A DNA stretch of 64,000 bases from Scytonematopsis contorta HA4267-MV1 (GTDB lineage: Bacteria; Cyanobacteriota; Cyanobacteriia; Cyanobacteriales; Nostocaceae): NCBI GenBank assembly GCA_019359035.1, contig JAHHIC010000087.1:1-64000 (forward strand), read 5' to 3'. This document shows, in pieces, positions 45,794 to 55,600 of the stretch. The notes under the pieces are model-generated. The model searched no databases. It had not been told where the DNA came from and worked only from the letters and a program-made list of their open reading frames with translations. The position numbers were made by a program, and so were the translations under genes. Each line of letters begins with the position of its first letter. Positions within the stretch are counted from its first letter, which is position 1.

Positions 45794-45970
45794 ACCAATT
45801 TGAGTTTGAAGCAAAATGCATAAATTGAAAGTTCTTGCTCCAAGTAGTAACTGGAAAGAAAACAACAAATCCAAGCTGAGCCTGCTAAATTTTCTGATTT
45901 AGGCTTTCTCAGAGGGATTTTTAAATTAGAAGAATGTCCCATTAACCACATGTGACATTTTAATTGTAGA

Positions 45971-45995
45971 CCCGCTTCTCTATTAGGGAAGCGGG
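45971..45995. repeat. hairpin CCCGCTTC/GAAGCGGG
   Basis: 8-bp stem, partly extended by CTA/TAG pairing in the loop. Dispersed-type hairpin; function unknown. Confidence 0.55.
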
Positions 45996-46269
45996 GTTGA
46001 GGCTTTGGTCATTATTTTAAAGTCCAAAAATTAGAAAATTAATTTCTTACAAATTTCTAACTAGTGCATAAATAAAAATCTTGTACATATTAGTCATTAG
46101 AGAGAAAACAATACATTAAAGCTTAGCTTTCTAAATTGTTTTATTTCAGCTTCACTTATAGAAAGATATAAGTTACAAACACTGTAATTTATTAGTCTAT
46201 AGAAGGCAAACGCAAAAAATCACAACTGCAAAATTATTGAATTTTTTCAACCAAAAAGGAATTAAAAAA

Positions 46270-46524
46270 ATGTCTACATCTTATCCTAATTGTAATGCTA
46301 AACCTTGCGAATTCGTTATTCCTATCAAACTAAGAGTTCCTGTTGATATCTATCCAGAAATCAACATTTATCCAACACCTTGCGAGCAAGCGAAATTACC
46401 TGTTTACTTACAACCCGATATCTTTTTGACACCCGAAGTATTGGCAATGCCCCAAGATTGCAAGTGCCTTCCCGAAAAAGAGCATTGCGAAGAGCCAACA
46501 CAATATATACAGCAATCTGTGTAA
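46270..46524 (+). CDS. tandem small Cys protein, copy 1
   Basis: 84 aa, no signal peptide or TM helix. Core: KPCEFVIPIKLRVPVDIYPE, then PTPCEQAKLPVYLQPDIFLT and PEVLAMPQDCKCLPEK. Cysteines lie at NCN, PCEF, TPC, DCKC and in the tail HCEEP. The beta-rich, Pro-punctuated core suggests a small repeat-like beta domain. ATG 46270 follows AAGGA; a TTG at 46237 is rejected. I do not recognise the family. It opens a head-to-tail run of five near-identical genes. Confidence 0.85.
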   Translation: MSTSYPNCNAKPCEFVIPIKLRVPVDIYPEINIYPTPCEQAKLPVYLQPDIFLTPEVLAMPQDCKCLPEKEHCEEPTQYIQQSV

Positions 46525-46593
46525 ATTAAATTGAGTTGTCTTTACTAACTAGCTTATTCAAACTTATTAATCAACAAAAAAGGATTTCAAACA

Positions 46594-46815
46594 ATGTCTA
46601 CATACAACCCTAACTGCAATTCTAAGCCTTGCGAATTCGTTATTCCTATCAAGTTAAGAGTTCCTGTTGATATTTACCCAGAAGTCAACATTCATCCAAC
46701 ACCTTGTAAGCAAGAGAAATTACCAGTTTACTTACAACCTGATATTTTCTTAACACCCGAAGTATTGGCATTGCCTCAAGATTGCAAATGTCTCCCCGAA
46801 AAAGAACACAACTAA
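46594..46815 (+). CDS. tandem small Cys protein, copy 2 (short tail)
   Basis: 73 aa. Same core as copy 1, with PTPCKQEK before LPVYLQPDIF, but it stops right after PEKEHN, lacking the 11-residue tail. SD AAAGGA with the leader TTTCAAACA immediately before ATGTCTACA, a leader shared with copies 3 and 4. Starts 69 bp after copy 1. Confidence 0.85.
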   Translation: MSTYNPNCNSKPCEFVIPIKLRVPVDIYPEVNIHPTPCKQEKLPVYLQPDIFLTPEVLALPQDCKCLPEKEHN

Positions 46816-46857
46816 AACCCACATTCCCTAATTCAACAAAACAAAGGATTTCAAACA

Positions 46858-47079
46858 ATGTCTACATACAACCCTAACTGCAATTCTAAGCCTTGCGAAT
46901 TCGTTATTCCTATTAAGTTAAGAGTTCCTGTTGATATTTACCCAGAAGTCAACATTCATCCAGTACATCGCGAGCAAGCTAAATTACCTGTTTACTTGCA
47001 GCCAGATATCTTCTTAACACCCGAAGTATTGGCAATGCCACAAGATTGTAAGTGTCTTCCCGAAAAAGAACACAACTAA
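46858..47079 (+). CDS. tandem small Cys protein, copy 3 (short tail, VHRE type)
   Basis: 73 aa. Identical to copy 2 for the first 36 residues, then PVHREQAK replaces PTPCKQEK, so one cysteine is lost. Ends EKEHN like copy 2. Starts 42 bp after it. Confidence 0.85.
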   Translation: MSTYNPNCNSKPCEFVIPIKLRVPVDIYPEVNIHPVHREQAKLPVYLQPDIFLTPEVLAMPQDCKCLPEKEHN

Positions 47080-47135
47080 AACCCACATTTCGCACCTCTA
47101 AGTAAATCATTCAACAAAACAAAGGATTTCAAATA

Positions 47136-47390
47136 ATGTCTACATACAACCCTAATTGCAATTCTAAACCTTGCGAATTCGTAATTCCTATCAAACTGAG
47201 AGTACCTGTTGATATTTACCCAGAAGTCAACATTCATCCAACACCTTGTAAGCAAGAGAAATTACCAGTTTACTTACAACCTGATATTTTCTTAACACCT
47301 CAAGTATTGGCAATGCCACAAGATTGTAAGTGTCTTCCCGAAAATGAACATTGTGAGGAGCCAACAGGATATATACAGCAATCTGCATAA
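47136..47390 (+). CDS. tandem small Cys protein, copy 4
   Basis: 84 aa. PTPCKQEK type like copy 2, but with the long tail EHCEEPTGYIQQSA as in copy 1. One change TPQVLAM in the conserved TPEVLAM. Confidence 0.85.
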   Translation: MSTYNPNCNSKPCEFVIPIKLRVPVDIYPEVNIHPTPCKQEKLPVYLQPDIFLTPQVLAMPQDCKCLPENEHCEEPTGYIQQSA

Positions 47391-47460
47391 TTTAAATTTA
47401 TAGGTTTCTGTTCATTAGTTAATTCAATTCAATCATTAAACAACAAAAGGAACTAAAACA

Positions 47461-47715
47461 ATGTCTACATCTTATCCAAATTGCAATTCTAAGCCTTGCG
47501 AATTCGTAATTCCCATTAAACTAAGAGTACCTGTTGATATTTATCCAGAAGTCAACATTCATCCAGTACATCGTGAGCAAGCAAAATTACCTGTTTACTT
47601 GCAGCCTGATATTTTCTTAACACCAGAAGTATTAGCAATGCCACAAGATTGTAAGTGCGTTCCAGAAAACGGACATCATCAACAGGCAACGGAGTATATG
47701 CAGCCATCTGCATAA
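47461..47715 (+). CDS. tandem small Cys protein, copy 5 (VHRE type)
   Basis: 84 aa. PVHREQAK type like copy 3, with a diverged long tail (GHHQQATEYMQPSA) in which the tail cysteine is lost. The N-terminus reads MSTSYPNCN as in copy 1. Confidence 0.85.
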   Translation: MSTSYPNCNSKPCEFVIPIKLRVPVDIYPEVNIHPVHREQAKLPVYLQPDIFLTPEVLAMPQDCKCVPENGHHQQATEYMQPSA

Positions 47716-47951
47716 GCGAAATTTACGTATTCCAATTAGGTACTTCTTAATTTATATCTTGTACCTAAGTCGAAAACAGGGTTTCTTAACAATAATTTTC
47801 ATCTGGAATGTTATGTGTATCGTTTAGAAACCCGGTTTTTTTAATGAGGCTTTTACAACTTATACTAGTTATATGTAAAGATTGGTATTAGCCTACATTA
47901 ATTATATAACAGTATTTTATATGAATCATAATTTTTTATTTTTTGAAGCTT

Positions 47952-48368
47952 ATGTCTACCATATCCGAACCATTTTTTTCTTCAGATGGACGTAAAATTC
48001 AGATATCTTTTGTTTTAACAATGCCCGTTGAGTTAGAACTAGAATTATCTGCACTTCCCTCAATTAACTATCATTCAATTGATGGCAAAAATGCTTTTAC
48101 TCAATCACATAATAACGTATCGACTGATTATATTGACAAAGATGTTCAATCAATATCTAATGAATTAATCGGTCAACTCTTAAAAAATAACGACTTTGTT
48201 TCCGCAATTGAGCAAATTAAATCTCAGAAAAATGTCGCTAGCTTTCATGAAAGAAACACAGATTTAAAAGGACACTTGAATATAAATATATTGCCTCCAG
48301 AAGCTGACACTGCTATTGAAGATAGCCAAATTAAACCAGCAGATTATAGTTGGGGATTTTTACGTTAA
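47952..48368 (+). CDS. divergent member next to the array, unknown
   Basis: 138 aa from ATG 47952 (ATGTCTACC, the same start context as the array). The early segment KIQISFVLTMPVELELELSALPS matches the layout of EFVIPIKLRVPVDIYPEVNI in the array, so I read it as a distant paralog with a new C-terminal half (about 45-138) that is Asn/Asp/Ser-rich and helical. It has no cysteines. 236 bp separate it from copy 5. Confidence 0.6.
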   Translation: MSTISEPFFSSDGRKIQISFVLTMPVELELELSALPSINYHSIDGKNAFTQSHNNVSTDYIDKDVQSISNELIGQLLKNNDFVSAIEQIKSQKNVASFHERNTDLKGHLNINILPPEADTAIEDSQIKPADYSWGFLR

Positions 48369-48738
48369 TAAGTTTCCACAAACTGGGACTCAATCTGCTA
48401 GTGGAATTAGCGAAAATACGTATCGGCTCAATAAATCGGGGTAGCTAAAAAATAAAAAGATTCAATAGTTTAGTTTATTTACATGAAATTATTTGGTGTT
48501 TTCCGTACTGCATAAGTTAAGTTTATTGACTCCTATTACAAGAAAAGGGAACTTATGTAAATGTTAGGGGTGTAGCATAGGCATCTCGCCTGTGCAGTGC
48601 ATGTTATAATTTTTACCACTGAGATGCAGAGGAGCCAGCGCCGTGGGCGGCTCCGCCGACTTAAGGCGAATGGCGTGGCACAGAGGAAGAGTTATTGAGG
48701 CATAACTTTTTAAAACTACATAATGGGAGTATGTCGAA
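48369..48738. other. intergenic region before the caspase gene
   Basis: 370 bp. From about 48570 it contains dispersed repeat sequence of the type GCGCCGTGGGCGGCTCCGCC and GTGGCACAGAGG. GGGAG near 48724 serves the GTG start at 48739. Confidence 0.5.
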
Positions 48739-51700
48739 GTGAATATTGCTCAACAAACGGAAGTATTTAATAACCCAGATGCTGACACCTTCTCAGGATT
48801 TGAGCGCAATTTAGCATTTATTATTGGCATCAATGAGTACCAAAACGGTATTTCTCCTCTGAAAACTGCCGTTAATGATGCCAAAAAACTTGTAGAAGTT
48901 CTGCGAGAAAAGCATAAATATCAAGTTTGGGTATGTTTAGACTCTGTTGCAACCCTAAGTAACTTAAATAAACTTTTAGAGGAAACATTACCCGCACAAG
49001 TTACCGAACATGATCGTTTGTTATTTTACTTCGCTGGTCATGGAGTTGCGCTAAATGGTGATGATGGGCCTGCTGGTTACTTAATTCCCCAAGATGCAAA
49101 GGGGGGCGATACTAGTACTTATCTACCGATGACGAAGTTGCACGATGCTTTGAGTAAGCTACCCTGTCGGCATTTTTTGGGTATTCTTGATTGTTGTTTT
49201 GCAGGCGCCTTCCGCTGGTCGAGTACGCGCGATTTAATCACCGAGCCTGAAGTTATTTACAAAGAACGTTATGACCGCTTTATTCGAGATGCAGCATGGC
49301 AAATAATTACTTCCTCAGCTTCCGACCAAAAAGCCTTAGATAACTTTAGTTTAGATACAGAACGCGGTCAAGTTGGTAATCATTCCCCATTTGCCACTGC
49401 GTTATTAGAAGCACTAGAAGGTGCCGCAGATGCTTCTCCTCCTGCCAAAAATGGTAAACCTGCTGGAGATGGTGTAATAACAGCTAATGAATTATATACA
49501 TATTTACGCGATAGAGTCGAAATCTCTACAGAAAAATATAGTCGGCGTCAAACCCCTGGTATTTGGTATTTAAATAAGCATGATAAGGGCGAGTATATTT
49601 TTCTTTCTCCCAATCACGAATTAAATTTACCACCAGCGCCACCGTTAGACGAATCAAAAAATCCCTATCGCGGTTTAAATTCATTTGAAGAAGAACACAG
49701 CCAATTATTTTTCGGTCGAAGCGAATTAGTTGAAAAATTACAAGATTTTGTCAAAATTAATCCTCTTACAGTTGTACTTGGTGCCAGTGGTTCGGGTAAA
49801 TCGAGTTTGGTCAAAGCTGGATTAATTCCTAAGTTAAAACAAGAAACTGATAATAAATGGTGTATATTGCCACCAATCCGCCCCGGTGAAACACCTTTTC
49901 AAGCATTAAATAAAGCCCTAGTTGAAGCCAGATTAACAACAGTAGAATTATATGACAAACAAAAAACTCTTGCTCAAAGTATTGATATATGGGCTAAAAA
50001 GCATCCCAATTCTAAGTTATTAATATTTATTGACCAAAGCGAAGAAATCATTACACTCTGTCAAGATGATAATCAGCGCAAGGAATTTTTCCAACAGGTA
50101 CTAACAGCAATTAATGCCCATCGCCCTATATTACGGGTAGTATTAAGCCTACGTTCTGATTTTGAGCGTCAAGTTCAAAGTACGGGCTTAAAATATGTTC
50201 CTACAGTTCTGCAATTGGGAGATACAGTGCTGAAAAACCGTTGGCAAAGCGGAAAATTTCAAGTACCAATGATGAAACGAGAGGAACTGCGCGAAGCAAT
50301 CGAAAAACCCGCTCAATTCCAGGTAATGTATTTCCAACCTCACAATTTAGTCGAACAATTAATTGATGAAGTGGCGGATATGCCAGGAGCATTACCACTG
50401 CTGTCTTTTGCCTTAAGCGAACTATTTTTAAAATATTTAAAACGGCAACGTTACGCGCAATATAGAGGTGAAAATATTGAGCGTGCGCTTACACAAGAAG
50501 ATTATCATGAATTGGGAGGAGTAATGCAATCGCTCACCCAGCGGGCAGATGAGGAATATCAAACGTTAGTACAAGAAAATCCTGCTTACGAGCAAGTTAT
50601 CCGTCATGTAATGCTGCGAATGGTAGCTATAGGTGGGGGTGAGTTAGCGCGTAGACGTGTACCATTGTCAGAATTGGAATATCCACCAGATAAAAATAGT
50701 TTAGTTCAACAAGTAATTGAGCAGTTTAGCCAAGCAAGGTTATTAGTAAAAGGACAAGATGCAGAGGGTAACCCCTACGTAGAACCAGCCCATGATGCTT
50801 TAGTTAAAAGTTGGGATAAAATACAAAAATGGCAACAACAAGAGCAAGAATACTTACCTTTACAACGGCGCCTGACACCCGCAGCAATAGATTGGAAAAC
50901 CAAAGAACAATCAAAAAGTCTAATTGGAAAAGCCGAACCTATACTAACTTGGTTCGATAAAAAAATCGACTCAGCAGAAAACTGGTTTAACAAACCTAAA
51001 GAAGAAGCTAAACAAAGCTCGTTAGAGAAAAAAAGACAATTTCTATGGAATAGCAATCCCTACCTCGACGTTTTAAAAAAGAAACTAAAATCAGTAGATT
51101 ACTGGTTCAACCAAGTAGAAGCCGAATTCGTCCAGCAAAGCGTTTGGCAAAGACGCAGAAACATTAACTTACGTTGGAGCATTGCAGTAGGCATAACTAC
51201 GTTATCAATTGGGTTAACTTTCTGGGCTTTATCACAGCAAAGAGATGCAGAAATCGGACAAATAGACAGTTCTAGACAAGCTTCAGAAGCACTTTTTCTC
51301 TCAAATCAACAACTAGATGCGCTGATTAGTAGCACACGCTCAGGAAAAAATTTAAGCAACCCACTGTTACAAACATTCCCACCAAACTCTCAACTACAAG
51401 AGCAAGTATTACAAACCTTACGGAAAGTTTTCTACGGTATGAGAGAACGTAAGCGATGGGAACCCGTACCAGGGATGAAAGTAAAGAATATGTTTTTCCA
51501 CCCGTCTGGCGAATTATTTATAGCAACCAAAAGTAATAATGGCACAGTTCAACTGTGGAACATGAAAACAAAAGGACAACCAATTCTCGAATTACCTGGA
51601 CACAAATTTAAAGTAGATGATTCTTCTGATAACATCTTTTTTAGTCCTGATGCTAGCAAAATAGCAACAGTTGACTCACAAGGCATCGTGCGTCTGTGGG

Positions 51701-53361
51701 ACTGGAACGGTAAGAGGTTAGGGAGTGATTTACGAGCAGGTTATCAAATCAATAAACTCAGTTTTAGTCCAAATGGTCAGTTCTTTATTACAGAAGGATA
51801 CGAAAATAAGGATGACATCCCTAACGGTCGTGGTGTAACTATCAAATCATGGAATTTACAAGGACGCTACAAAATATTGCCATCAAACGTAATTGGCGCC
51901 AATTTTAAAAGCGATAGCAGTATAGTGAGTGCTAATCAAAACCACGATAAAATAGAAGAGCGCGATAAAATAGAACTGTTCGGATTATCGAACAAAGCCA
52001 TCCCAATACCTTATGTAGTACCAAATGCAATGGACGGCAAGGTAGAAGTGTCTTTCAGTCCTAATAGCAATTATGTAGTATTAACCAGTAGCTATGGAGA
52101 TTCATTCTCTACCAAAATACGGAAGTGGAACGGCAAAAGCTTAGAAGTTTTAGAGTCAGACGCAGAAAAAGATTATATTGAGAATGCTCAAATAACTAGT
52201 TTTAGTTCTGATAGTAAACTAGTAGCGTTTACTAATAATAATACTGTTCGTATATATAATCTATCAACTTTTTCTGAATCTTCAATAAATTTTAACGAAA
52301 TTAAATTACCTTCTGGTACAATTCAAAATACGACTTTTAGTAAAGATGGCAAATCTATAGCTACACAAAGCGAAAATGGAACCGTTCGCTGGTGGGATGT
52401 ATATCCCCCACAACTAGAGAAATCAAAGCAATATCAATTTTTGCAAAACGATATCCAAAATATCAGTTTTAGTCCTGACAATAAGACTATTGCTACTGTA
52501 AGCAATAACGGGACTGCTGTCCGTTTACTCGATTTAAATGGCAAGCAACTATCAGAATTTCCAATTACTTCAGGCAAAATCACAAGTATTAGTTTTAGCC
52601 CTGATAGCAAAACTATTGTGACTGGTAATGAGAATGGTACTGTTAGCTTTTTCAACCAGAGCGGCAAGAAATTAGAACCAATCAAAGTACACTCAAAAAA
52701 CGTCAAGAGTGTTGTTTTTAGTCTAGATGGTCAACGTCTTGGTACTTTAGGTTCTGACGGCAAAGAAGCTGATGGCTCGGATACTTATGTAGCTAAGTTA
52801 TGGAGATTAAATGGAGGCAAATTAGAACTTGAAAAAACTTCAGAAGAATATGTGTCTTTTTATAAGGTTCGCAGTGTAAAATTTAAAGGAAATGAAGATT
52901 TACGACTAGTTACAGAAATTGATGATAACCATATGTCCGCAAATGTTTCTTTGTGGAAGATGTCTGGAGAACAAGAAGAGATATTACCAGTAGAAACAAA
53001 GAGAGGACATTCAGACAGCATAGCTTTTAGCCCGGATGACAGTTTACTTGCTAGGGTTGATACAGGTACAAATATTATCGGGTTGTGGAACTTGCAAAAT
53101 AGAAATTTACTAATGGAATTCAAAGACAATGAATGCAACATCCAAGCAAATAAACCATGCATAACAAGCATTAATTTTAGCCCTGATGGCAGTACACTAG
53201 CTATAATTAGAAGTAATGGCAGTGCTAAACTTTTGCAATTAGGAAGCTTAAACGAATTACTTGCAAAAGGTTGCTATAGAATGCGTGATTATCTAACTAA
53301 TCTTGATGAAAATAACAACAACCACCGTCTTTGTGATAGCATCGGCAATTTTCAAAGATAA
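48739..53361 (+). CDS. caspase-STAND ATPase-WD40 protein
   Basis: 1540 aa, GTG start (an ATG at 48731 stops after three codons). Caspase/C14 domain about 20-285 with H101 in FYFAGHGVALNG and C153 in GILDCCFAGAFRW, so the catalytic dyad is intact. The linker motif NPYRGLNSFEEEHSQLFFGR leads to an nSTAND-type NTPase with Walker A GASGSGKSS (347-355) and Walker B LLIFIDQSEE (D431). A helical region has a duplicated WFN...RR...W unit (about 735-810). One TM helix about 811-831 is followed by divergent WD40-like blades (about 905-1490), many with FSPD and KLW/RLWD motifs. C-terminal cap NELLAKGCYRMRDYL...LC. Predicted signal-activated protease: WD40 senses, STAND oligomerises, caspase cuts. Confidence 0.93.
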   Translation: MNIAQQTEVFNNPDADTFSGFERNLAFIIGINEYQNGISPLKTAVNDAKKLVEVLREKHKYQVWVCLDSVATLSNLNKLLEETLPAQVTEHDRLLFYFAGHGVALNGDDGPAGYLIPQDAKGGDTSTYLPMTKLHDALSKLPCRHFLGILDCCFAGAFRWSSTRDLITEPEVIYKERYDRFIRDAAWQIITSSASDQKALDNFSLDTERGQVGNHSPFATALLEALEGAADASPPAKNGKPAGDGVITANELYTYLRDRVEISTEKYSRRQTPGIWYLNKHDKGEYIFLSPNHELNLPPAPPLDESKNPYRGLNSFEEEHSQLFFGRSELVEKLQDFVKINPLTVVLGASGSGKSSLVKAGLIPKLKQETDNKWCILPPIRPGETPFQALNKALVEARLTTVELYDKQKTLAQSIDIWAKKHPNSKLLIFIDQSEEIITLCQDDNQRKEFFQQVLTAINAHRPILRVVLSLRSDFERQVQSTGLKYVPTVLQLGDTVLKNRWQSGKFQVPMMKREELREAIEKPAQFQVMYFQPHNLVEQLIDEVADMPGALPLLSFALSELFLKYLKRQRYAQYRGENIERALTQEDYHELGGVMQSLTQRADEEYQTLVQENPAYEQVIRHVMLRMVAIGGGELARRRVPLSELEYPPDKNSLVQQVIEQFSQARLLVKGQDAEGNPYVEPAHDALVKSWDKIQKWQQQEQEYLPLQRRLTPAAIDWKTKEQSKSLIGKAEPILTWFDKKIDSAENWFNKPKEEAKQSSLEKKRQFLWNSNPYLDVLKKKLKSVDYWFNQVEAEFVQQSVWQRRRNINLRWSIAVGITTLSIGLTFWALSQQRDAEIGQIDSSRQASEALFLSNQQLDALISSTRSGKNLSNPLLQTFPPNSQLQEQVLQTLRKVFYGMRERKRWEPVPGMKVKNMFFHPSGELFIATKSNNGTVQLWNMKTKGQPILELPGHKFKVDDSSDNIFFSPDASKIATVDSQGIVRLWDWNGKRLGSDLRAGYQINKLSFSPNGQFFITEGYENKDDIPNGRGVTIKSWNLQGRYKILPSNVIGANFKSDSSIVSANQNHDKIEERDKIELFGLSNKAIPIPYVVPNAMDGKVEVSFSPNSNYVVLTSSYGDSFSTKIRKWNGKSLEVLESDAEKDYIENAQITSFSSDSKLVAFTNNNTVRIYNLSTFSESSINFNEIKLPSGTIQNTTFSKDGKSIATQSENGTVRWWDVYPPQLEKSKQYQFLQNDIQNISFSPDNKTIATVSNNGTAVRLLDLNGKQLSEFPITSGKITSISFSPDSKTIVTGNENGTVSFFNQSGKKLEPIKVHSKNVKSVVFSLDGQRLGTLGSDGKEADGSDTYVAKLWRLNGGKLELEKTSEEYVSFYKVRSVKFKGNEDLRLVTEIDDNHMSANVSLWKMSGEQEEILPVETKRGHSDSIAFSPDDSLLARVDTGTNIIGLWNLQNRNLLMEFKDNECNIQANKPCITSINFSPDGSTLAIIRSNGSAKLLQLGSLNELLAKGCYRMRDYLTNLDENNNNHRLCDSIGNFQR

Positions 53362-53581
53362 TAGCATGAAATAAATGGTTACAAGAGTTCTTGCTAAATT
53401 GGTGACTTTTTTTTTAACATTTGGCTATTACTATAATAGTTTATAATTTTTACATCCTCCCTAAGATAGATTTTTAATGTAAGTAGGGTGGGTACTGCCC
53501 CACCTTACCGCTTCTGTCGAAGGTGCATAACTCCACATCAATGACACCTAAAACAATGTAGTAAATTAGAGATACATTATC

Positions 53582-55600
53582 ATGGCTAGTAACATTTACG
53601 CATTATTAGTAGGTATTGATAACTATGCGGCACCTGTTAGTAGGCTCCAAGGCTGCATTAATGATGTAATGGCTGTAGAAGAATATTTAGAAACACGGGT
53701 GAAAACTGAAGGATGGAATTTACACTTAAAAATTCTTAAAGATTCAGAAGCAACCCGTCAAGGTATAATAAACGGCTTTCGCGAACATTTATGTCAAGCG
53801 AACAGCAATGATGTTGCTTTATTTTATTACAGTGGTCATGGTTCCCAAGAGCCAGCACCTCCAGAATTTTGGGAATTTCAACCGGAAAAATTGAATGAAA
53901 CGCTCGTTTGCTACGATAGTCGTATGGAAGGTGGTTGGGATTTGGCAGATAAAGAACTAGCCAAGTTAATTGCGGAGGTAGCGCAAAAAAATCCCCACAT
54001 TACCCTAATTTTAGATTGCTGTCATTCCGGTTCGGGGACAAAAGACCCACTCCAAGAAACCGCAGTTCGCCAATATACAGCTGATGTACGCTCTCGTCCT
54101 GTAGATAGTTTTATTTTTTCCCAAGAAGATATTCAAAGTATTCGCTCCTTAAACCGACAAGCATCAGGTTGGAATTTACCAAAGGGTAAGCATATTTTAT
54201 TCGCATCTTGTCAAAATTCGGAAACCGCTAAAGAATATAAAGTTGATTCAGAACACCGAGGAGCATTTTGTTATTTTCTCACCAAAACCCTTAATCAAAC
54301 TCAAGGAAATCTTAGCTATCGAGATTTATTTAAACGTATCAATGCTTTGGTACGCAGTAAAGTTAAACAACAATCACCACAATTAGAAGCAACCGATAGT
54401 AAAGAATTAGACCAATTATTTCTAGGTGGGGCGGTACGTGATTGCCATCCATACTATACTGTTGAGCATCACAAACAATATGGTTGGATAATTGATGGTG
54501 GCGCCGTACATGGTGTACCTCGTCCTTCATCTGGAGAAGCTATGCATTTGGCGCTATTTCCAATTACAGCTAGAGCTAATGATTTACGCAAACTATCTGA
54601 TAAACTTGGAGAAGCGCAAGTTACCGAAGTTTTACCACAACTGAGTCAAATCACAATTGAAGGAATTACAAATTTAGACAAAGAACAAACTTTCAAAGCC
54701 GTTATTACCAGTTTACCTTTGCCACCATTAGGTGTACACTTTGTTGGTGATTCAGAAGGAGTGCAATTATTAAAACAAGCATTACAAAATATTAATAATG
54801 AGCAACCTTCTGTGTATGTACGCGAAGTTAGCGATAGCGAGACCGCTGAATTTAAAGTTGTCGCTCTAAACGGAGAATATATTATTACTCGACCTGCGGA
54901 TGGCATACCTATAGTTAGTCAAATTTCTGGTTATAGCCAAGAAGGCGCTATATTAGTTGTTCAACGTCTCGAACATATTACCCGCTGGACAAATCTGAGC
55001 GAACTACAAAGTCCTGCAAATAGTCGAATTAGTGCTTCGGCAATTAAACTTGAAATTTATCAAAATAATCAAGTTTTAGAAGATAGTCAAATTCGCCTTA
55101 ATTACTATCAAGATGATAGCGGGAAATGGAACCGACCGACTTTTAAAATCAAGCTAAAAAATACCAGCGACGAAACCCTTTATTGTGCATTACTCGATTT
55201 AACTGAACAATTCTCGATTAATGCGGGTTTTTTTGAAGCAGGTTACATCAAACTCGAACCTAACCAACAAGCTTGGGCTTTTGGTGGAAGAGCTATTCCT
55301 GCCAGCGTTCCTGATGATTTATGGCAACAGGGAGTTAAAGAGTATCAAGATATTTTAAAACTCATCGTTTGCACCAATGAATTTGATGCCAGATTATTAG
55401 AACAAAATAAACTCGATGTACCGCGTAAAGAATATACTCAACGTAGTTTACGGACAAGTACCCTCAACCGTTTAATGAGTCGTTGGCAACCGCGCGATAT
55501 CATTTTAGATGAAGCAGTTGAGGAATACGATGATTGGGTAGCTAGTCAAGTAGTCATTAAAACTATTCGTCCCCTCGAAACCATGACTATTCCCAACTAG
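53582..55600 (+). CDS. caspase-family (metacaspase-like) protein
   Basis: 672 aa, soluble. Caspase domain about 1-290: YALLVGIDNYAAPVSRLQGCINDV, H86 in FYYSGHGSQEPA and C147 in LILDCCHSGSGTKDP; both catalytic residues are present. The C-terminal part (about 300-670) has a domain starting HKQYGWIIDGGAVHGVPRPS and continuing in beta-rich sequence seen in other cyanobacterial caspases, with no STAND or WD40 domain. It lies 220 bp after the caspase-STAND gene and 150 bp before the PI-PLC gene, all on the same strand. It may be a downstream executioner of the larger protein; that is inferred. Confidence 0.9.
   Translation: MASNIYALLVGIDNYAAPVSRLQGCINDVMAVEEYLETRVKTEGWNLHLKILKDSEATRQGIINGFREHLCQANSNDVALFYYSGHGSQEPAPPEFWEFQPEKLNETLVCYDSRMEGGWDLADKELAKLIAEVAQKNPHITLILDCCHSGSGTKDPLQETAVRQYTADVRSRPVDSFIFSQEDIQSIRSLNRQASGWNLPKGKHILFASCQNSETAKEYKVDSEHRGAFCYFLTKTLNQTQGNLSYRDLFKRINALVRSKVKQQSPQLEATDSKELDQLFLGGAVRDCHPYYTVEHHKQYGWIIDGGAVHGVPRPSSGEAMHLALFPITARANDLRKLSDKLGEAQVTEVLPQLSQITIEGITNLDKEQTFKAVITSLPLPPLGVHFVGDSEGVQLLKQALQNINNEQPSVYVREVSDSETAEFKVVALNGEYIITRPADGIPIVSQISGYSQEGAILVVQRLEHITRWTNLSELQSPANSRISASAIKLEIYQNNQVLEDSQIRLNYYQDDSGKWNRPTFKIKLKNTSDETLYCALLDLTEQFSINAGFFEAGYIKLEPNQQAWAFGGRAIPASVPDDLWQQGVKEYQDILKLIVCTNEFDARLLEQNKLDVPRKEYTQRSLRTSTLNRLMSRWQPRDIILDEAVEEYDDWVASQVVIKTIRPLETMTIPN

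Follow-up and report, generated by a model that had tools for sequence, protein, structure and literature searches.

Why would a cyanobacterium keep five small, cysteine-containing genes in a row, and what could such an array do? The question arises in Scytonematopsis contorta HA4267-MV1, on a stretch of 64,000 nucleotides of contig JAHHIC010000087.1 that we refer to as the window. We call the five array genes S and the gene that follows them B.

The five-copy array and its history

The array consists of the following genes:

46270..46524, + strand: S copy 1, 84 aa, long tail, residues 35-42 PTPCEQAK
46594..46815, + strand: S copy 2, 73 aa, short tail, residues 35-42 PTPCKQEK
46858..47079, + strand: S copy 3, 73 aa, short tail, residues 35-42 PVHREQAK
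47136..47390, + strand: S copy 4, 84 aa, long tail, residues 35-42 PTPCKQEK
47461..47715, + strand: S copy 5, 84 aa, long tail, residues 35-42 PVHREQAK

The alternation of PTPC (type A) and PVHREQAK middle blocks in five small ORFs was confirmed, as was the tail order long-short-short-long-long from copy 1 to copy 5. The original prediction also described the copies as near-identical. This holds for the proteins (80 to 95% identity among the five, 80 to 88% to copy 1) but not for the DNA, which is 83 to 93% identical over the 216-nt core, with 50 variable positions that fall mainly on third codon positions. By the NG86 method, dS ranges from 0.32 to 0.92 and dN from 0.018 to 0.074 (dN/dS of about 0.05 to 0.15). 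Since the differences are mostly synonymous, sequencing error and collapsed copies are ruled out, and an assembly error as the source of the copies is rejected. The third-position bias and the low dN relative to dS indicate real, separate genes under purifying selection, which covers the whole 72-residue S body. The window copies are thus old genes retained by selection, and the 10.66-Mb genome holds no credible S copies beyond these five.

Site patterns within the array bear on its origin. In the middle block, copy 2 equals copy 4 and copy 3 equals copy 5, while elsewhere the matches are 2-3 and 4-5. Sites 106 to 144 group copies 3 and 5 against 1, 2, and 4, or copies 2 and 4 against 1, 3, and 5; the start of the gene groups copies 2, 3, and 4 against 1 and 5, and further sites pair 2 with 3 or 4 with 5. 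Over 26 informative sites, neighbors are more compatible with each other than in shuffled order (P = 0.002 to 0.016, depending on the span of sites used in the test). This mosaic (P of about 0.003) supports a history in which a two-gene unit was duplicated and gene conversion then acted within each pair, much as had been proposed from the A-B alternation. PVHREQAK is likely the derived state, because the type-A block resembles outgroup sequences (HPAPAKQEK in G057). The copy order a-b-c-b-c is also found in another genus (G029 and G144), and a short form of S without the middle block occurs in G029, G144, and G019.

In the tree, the five window copies group together to the exclusion of every other genome (support 100/99). 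Among close relatives, orthologs occupy the same array position (the Mastigocoleus pair, the Calothrix pair, and positions 1 and 3 in Tolypothrix), and at larger distances the copies group by genome (the window, G057, G005, and G166), which points to array turnover. Close relatives carry arrays of 2 to 5 copies, contrary to the possibility, raised at the outset, of a single copy in close relatives and variation due to error.

Spread of the S family and its partner gene B

A profile search of 218 Nostocaceae genomes found S in 39, remnants counted, from 17 of 56 genera; carriers include Tolypothrix, Hassallia, Calothrix, Rivularia, Mastigocoleus, Scytonema, Brasilonema, Iningainema, and Nostoc sp. 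CHAB 5844. The 30 arrays that we read hold 2 to 5 copies each. The S core reads CEF(T/V)(I/V)PIKLxVPI, and the cysteines that are invariant across the family are C13 and C64. The window shows this core, the second cysteine near residue 64, and B 3' of the array on the same strand. Searches of Pfam, NCBIfam, PADLOC, and PDB sequences (for B also PHROGs) returned only chance-level matches for S and B, an order-level sample gave no convincing S-B beyond Nostocaceae, and Rfam had no match in 45900-48900. A phage or plasmid origin of the array was rejected, as S had no match in phages, plasmids, or IMG/VR and B none in plasmids. Literature searches for the family and for the promoter motif described below gave nothing relevant. 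S-B is a lineage-restricted, previously unnamed two-gene cassette with a patchy distribution in Nostocaceae.

Two further features lie 3' of the S genes:

47772..47845, + strand: long-loop hairpin GGGTTTCT ... AGAAACCC, then a T run, between the S array and B
47952..48368, + strand: partner gene B (the "sixth gene"), start codon ATG at 47952, retains the N-terminal beta motif; the C-terminal hydrophobic helix is missing, with PADYSWGFLR as a remnant

The hairpin (-21 kcal/mol, z of -2.16), which a simple scan restricted to short loops had missed, is a putative terminator-like element. B had been noted as a divergent sixth gene. It does have an S-like N-terminal motif, but it is a conserved partner and not a degraded S gene: a single B gene follows the array on the same strand, after a gap of 80 to 351 bp, in 29 of the 32 loci holding both. 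B begins like S (hhalign of the N-termini, P = 1.8e-4 with a probability of only 48%), continues with a variable linker, and ends in DSxNDGFTLxxNxxGTxLFLGKxANYSWE, the moderately hydrophobic "NYSW" helix (KD 1.2 to 1.8). This helix is missing from the window B and is cut by a frameshift in the B of G043. It is also found as a stand-alone small-protein family; with B included, matches occur in 90 of the 218 genomes. The stand-alone proteins (approximately 53 to 104 aa) are present in many Nostoc and relatives (L173-L190, e.g., L174:6568-6846), and a conjugative plasmid of Nostoc sp. UHCC 0302 carries one of them, with no gene in the PLSDB table. AlphaFold2 models have low confidence (pLDDT of 61 for S and 40 for B), so the view of S as a beta subunit rests on its sequence pattern.

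Several loci depart from the common layout. G152 keeps an intact B, its S genes being deleted. Two Tolypothrix-group genomes have flanking genes in common, and one of them has an intact B without an S array (L172:7399-7917 versus L043), a difference that reads as a natural deletion of the array. At L117:8427-8909, the start of an S gene is fused to the body of B by an apparent deletion. In G231 and G232 (L119 and L120), B and the intact S point in divergent directions, and what stands ahead of B is a remnant of S that is truncated at its N-terminus and has a promoter motif of its own. Finally, the last S copy, beside B, has a conserved tail of its own (QSAEMS or MQSVEI in G021, G150, G153, G145, G236, G237, G240, and G121), unlike the other copies, which hints that this copy may have a distinct role.

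A promoter element shared with CHAT/caspase genes

Upstream of many arrays we found the motif (G/C)TGCATAAGT(T/C)(A/G)ATTT, which includes a TGCATAAG box and is followed by a -10-like CTATNNA. The features in the window that relate to it are as follows:

46164..46200, + strand: degenerate array-promoter relic AGATATAAGTT-N14-TTATTAG, then the leader start ATAGAAGG, recognized by alignment only
48508..48523, + strand: motif copy STGCATAAGTYRATTT, 1 mismatch, 232 bp before the caspase-nSTAND-WD40 start at 48739
48739..53361, + strand: caspase (C14)-nSTAND1-WD40 protein, outside the cassette, downstream of the motif copy at 48508

With 1 mismatch allowed, the motif occurs 56 times in G057, 37 in G115, 27 in G043, 26 in G000, and 25 in G145, against 1 to 3 occurrences of a control pattern; in G003, and in G189 and G032, the two S-less genomes tested, its count is close to that of the control. 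Among 82 sites, 76 are intergenic, and a same-strand gene lies downstream of 43, compared with 12 in the mirror direction. A matrix trained on the non-S sites of two genomes placed 18 of 35 arrays above the 99% null. The window array is not among them, and the matrix scan gave no significant copy for Brasilonema/Calothrix-clade arrays. The window relic lies 104 bp before the first S start, with the spacing and leader of its relatives but with a nonsignificant PWM score, and the window leader lacks its 3' half. In the family, the leader forms a small hairpin with both-side changes in 4 of 8 pairs, a level reached in 0 of 500 shuffles. NtcA, DIF, J-box, and LexA sites upstream of the array did not exceed expectation. 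Sequence conservation continues approximately 100 nt beyond the motif in several genomes, so part of its spread may be due to a dispersed repeat carrying a promoter. At L249, L247, L211, L217, L264, L265, and L272, motif sites occur in tandem, or the approximately 100 nt downstream are common, across genomes, to sites before unrelated genes. The genome-wide motif (STGCATAAGTYRATTT...CTATNNA) with its leader is apparently undescribed.

The genes under the motif are enriched in CHAT/caspase/STAND proteins. Of 59 first genes below it, 12 matched a CHAT, caspase, nSTAND, or CHAT-type seed versus 0 of 170 background ORFs (P = 3.5e-8); two of the seven seeds were taken post hoc from the regulon itself, and 8 of 59 remain when hits on those alone are dropped. 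Among the motif-downstream genes, Pfam identified CHAT in 8 of 31 and 3 of 28 and caspase in 2 of 28. The enrichment upstream of CHAT/caspase/STAND genes refers to G000, G057, and G115 (loci L243-L282 and L199-L242). About half of the arrays have this promoter element in common with many CHAT/caspase genes. Such co-regulation does not demonstrate a shared function.

Could the array instead be a functional part of the caspase locus next to it (48739-55600)? The motif copy at 48508 speaks for it, as does the finding that 5 of 41 arrays have caspase, CHAT, or nSTAND genes nearby. However, the types, distances, and orientations of these genes differ, and with about 3 to 26 CHAT and 4 to 26 caspase genes per genome, a few near arrays are expected; fixed linkage is rejected on these grounds. 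Moreover, the genes flanking S arrays mostly vary between genera, so no synteny ties the caspase locus to the array. We consider this reading very unlikely. The adjacency to a protease locus to which the original prediction drew attention is accordingly not conserved, yet the caspase gene carries the motif common to many arrays. The commonest array neighbor is an AraC-type regulator, found in 8 genomes and directly upstream of the array in several (L102:6867-7424, L103:8890-9432, L105:6166-6684, and L126:8739-9296). Arrays behind this regulator have direct repeats AAAAATARTTAATTAGCA upstream in place of the TGCATAAGT motif.

Proposed role and known systems

We tentatively propose, as a possibility that may well prove wrong, that S-B is a conditionally expressed subunit-plus-anchor system with a structural or adaptor role, co-regulated with conflict effectors. 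S would be a small soluble protein, mostly of extended beta strands, produced at a high dose owing to its gene number. B would nucleate or bind S via the shared beta motif, and its C-terminal NYSW helix would link S to the membrane or to a further partner. Both would be made under particular conditions, in the same program as CHAT/caspase-STAND conflict proteins, probably from a dedicated promoter and, in one clade, also under the AraC-type regulator beside the array; S-B would then contribute to that response as a structural element or an adaptor. We infer the conditional expression, the S-B contact, the membrane anchoring of B, and the structural/adaptor role. Counting against this reading are the co-occurrence of S with a damaged B in the window, the B without S in G152, and the lack of a significant motif at the window array. 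The loss of the helix from the window B may mean that the system is altered or in decay here.

The small size, tandem arrangement, and copy-specific tails of S would also suit a set of peptide precursors, several per locus, whose products would be modified or secreted (RiPP-like or signal peptides), and by eye the motif also precedes precursor-looking genes (L195, L242, and L280). Yet no modifying enzyme, protease, or transporter is conserved beside any array, neither a signal peptide nor a double-glycine leader is evident in the S sequences, and the entire S body is under purifying selection, so that we regard peptide precursors as improbable. A toxin-antidote type of pair, in which the B helix would be a membrane effector and S its neutralizer, draws on the kinship of that helix with stand-alone small proteins, on co-regulation with cell-death-like genes, and on a patchy distribution with frequent decay. 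But the intact B without S in G152 and the window S with a helix-less B mean that neither depends on the other, and PADLOC gave no convincing match; such a pair is distinctly unlikely. Least probable in our eyes is a metal- or redox-binding S, despite its invariant C13 and C64 and the CxC pair of the window's clade. This pair, the "DCKC" from which metal binding had been predicted, is restricted to that clade, its second cysteine not being conserved in the family, and S lacks a His/Cys pattern typical of metallothioneins. S-B might finally consist of genes that are specific to the lineage, were multiplied by recombination, do little, and are now drifting toward loss: remnants occur in G142, G147, G154, and G233, an S-B fusion in G177, and an IS-side remnant in G119, and B decays in the window and in G043. 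The low dN/dS among copies, the conserved S-B order, and a leader hairpin conserved through both-side base-pair changes make this unlikely as well.

The subunit-plus-anchor proposal can be placed in a wider frame, which we hold to be rather doubtful: S-B may be a hitherto undescribed structural or adaptor element belonging to a multicellular-cyanobacterial regulon that is itself undescribed, and in this regulon one promoter-plus-leader would switch on CHAT/caspase-STAND proteins, adhesins, and the array. Our analysis delimits a two-gene family of large-genome filamentous cyanobacteria that had no annotation, and the 36-nt promoter consensus offers a DNA handle that ties S-B to dozens of genes, caspase and CHAT types included. 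What sets such proteins off in cyanobacteria is poorly understood; should the promoter link be real, the array would be a marker, and possibly a part, of that response.

Among known systems, curli of the CsgA/CsgB type is a polymer system made of a subunit and a nucleator or anchor. S-B lacks an evident signal peptide, export genes, and sequence relation to curli; the analogy is with how it may work, several small beta-patterned S copies being combined with one related partner that has an extra segment. The uncharacterized stand-alone NYSW proteins of Nostocaceae share the helix of B, with its D-N-K-N-Y-S-W positions, but have no S-like N-terminus, and no array adjoins those examined. The conserved modifying enzyme or transporter that adjoins RiPP precursor arrays was not found. 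CHAT/caspase-STAND proteins of multicellular bacteria are described as conflict systems (eLife 2020, PMC7159879; PNAS 2024, PMC10907252); the former names Mastigocoleus and Scytonema, of the same multicellular cyanobacteria group, and a word search of both papers returned no promoter analysis. By Pfam and PADLOC, effector, sensor, STAND, and EAD domains are all absent from S and B, and we therefore claim co-regulation only. A fixed neighborhood with effector genes is likewise absent (5 of 41 loci). What S arrays do share with the caspase, CHAT, and nSTAND genes of these conflict systems is the promoter element, present at 18 of 35 arrays, though not significantly at the window's own.
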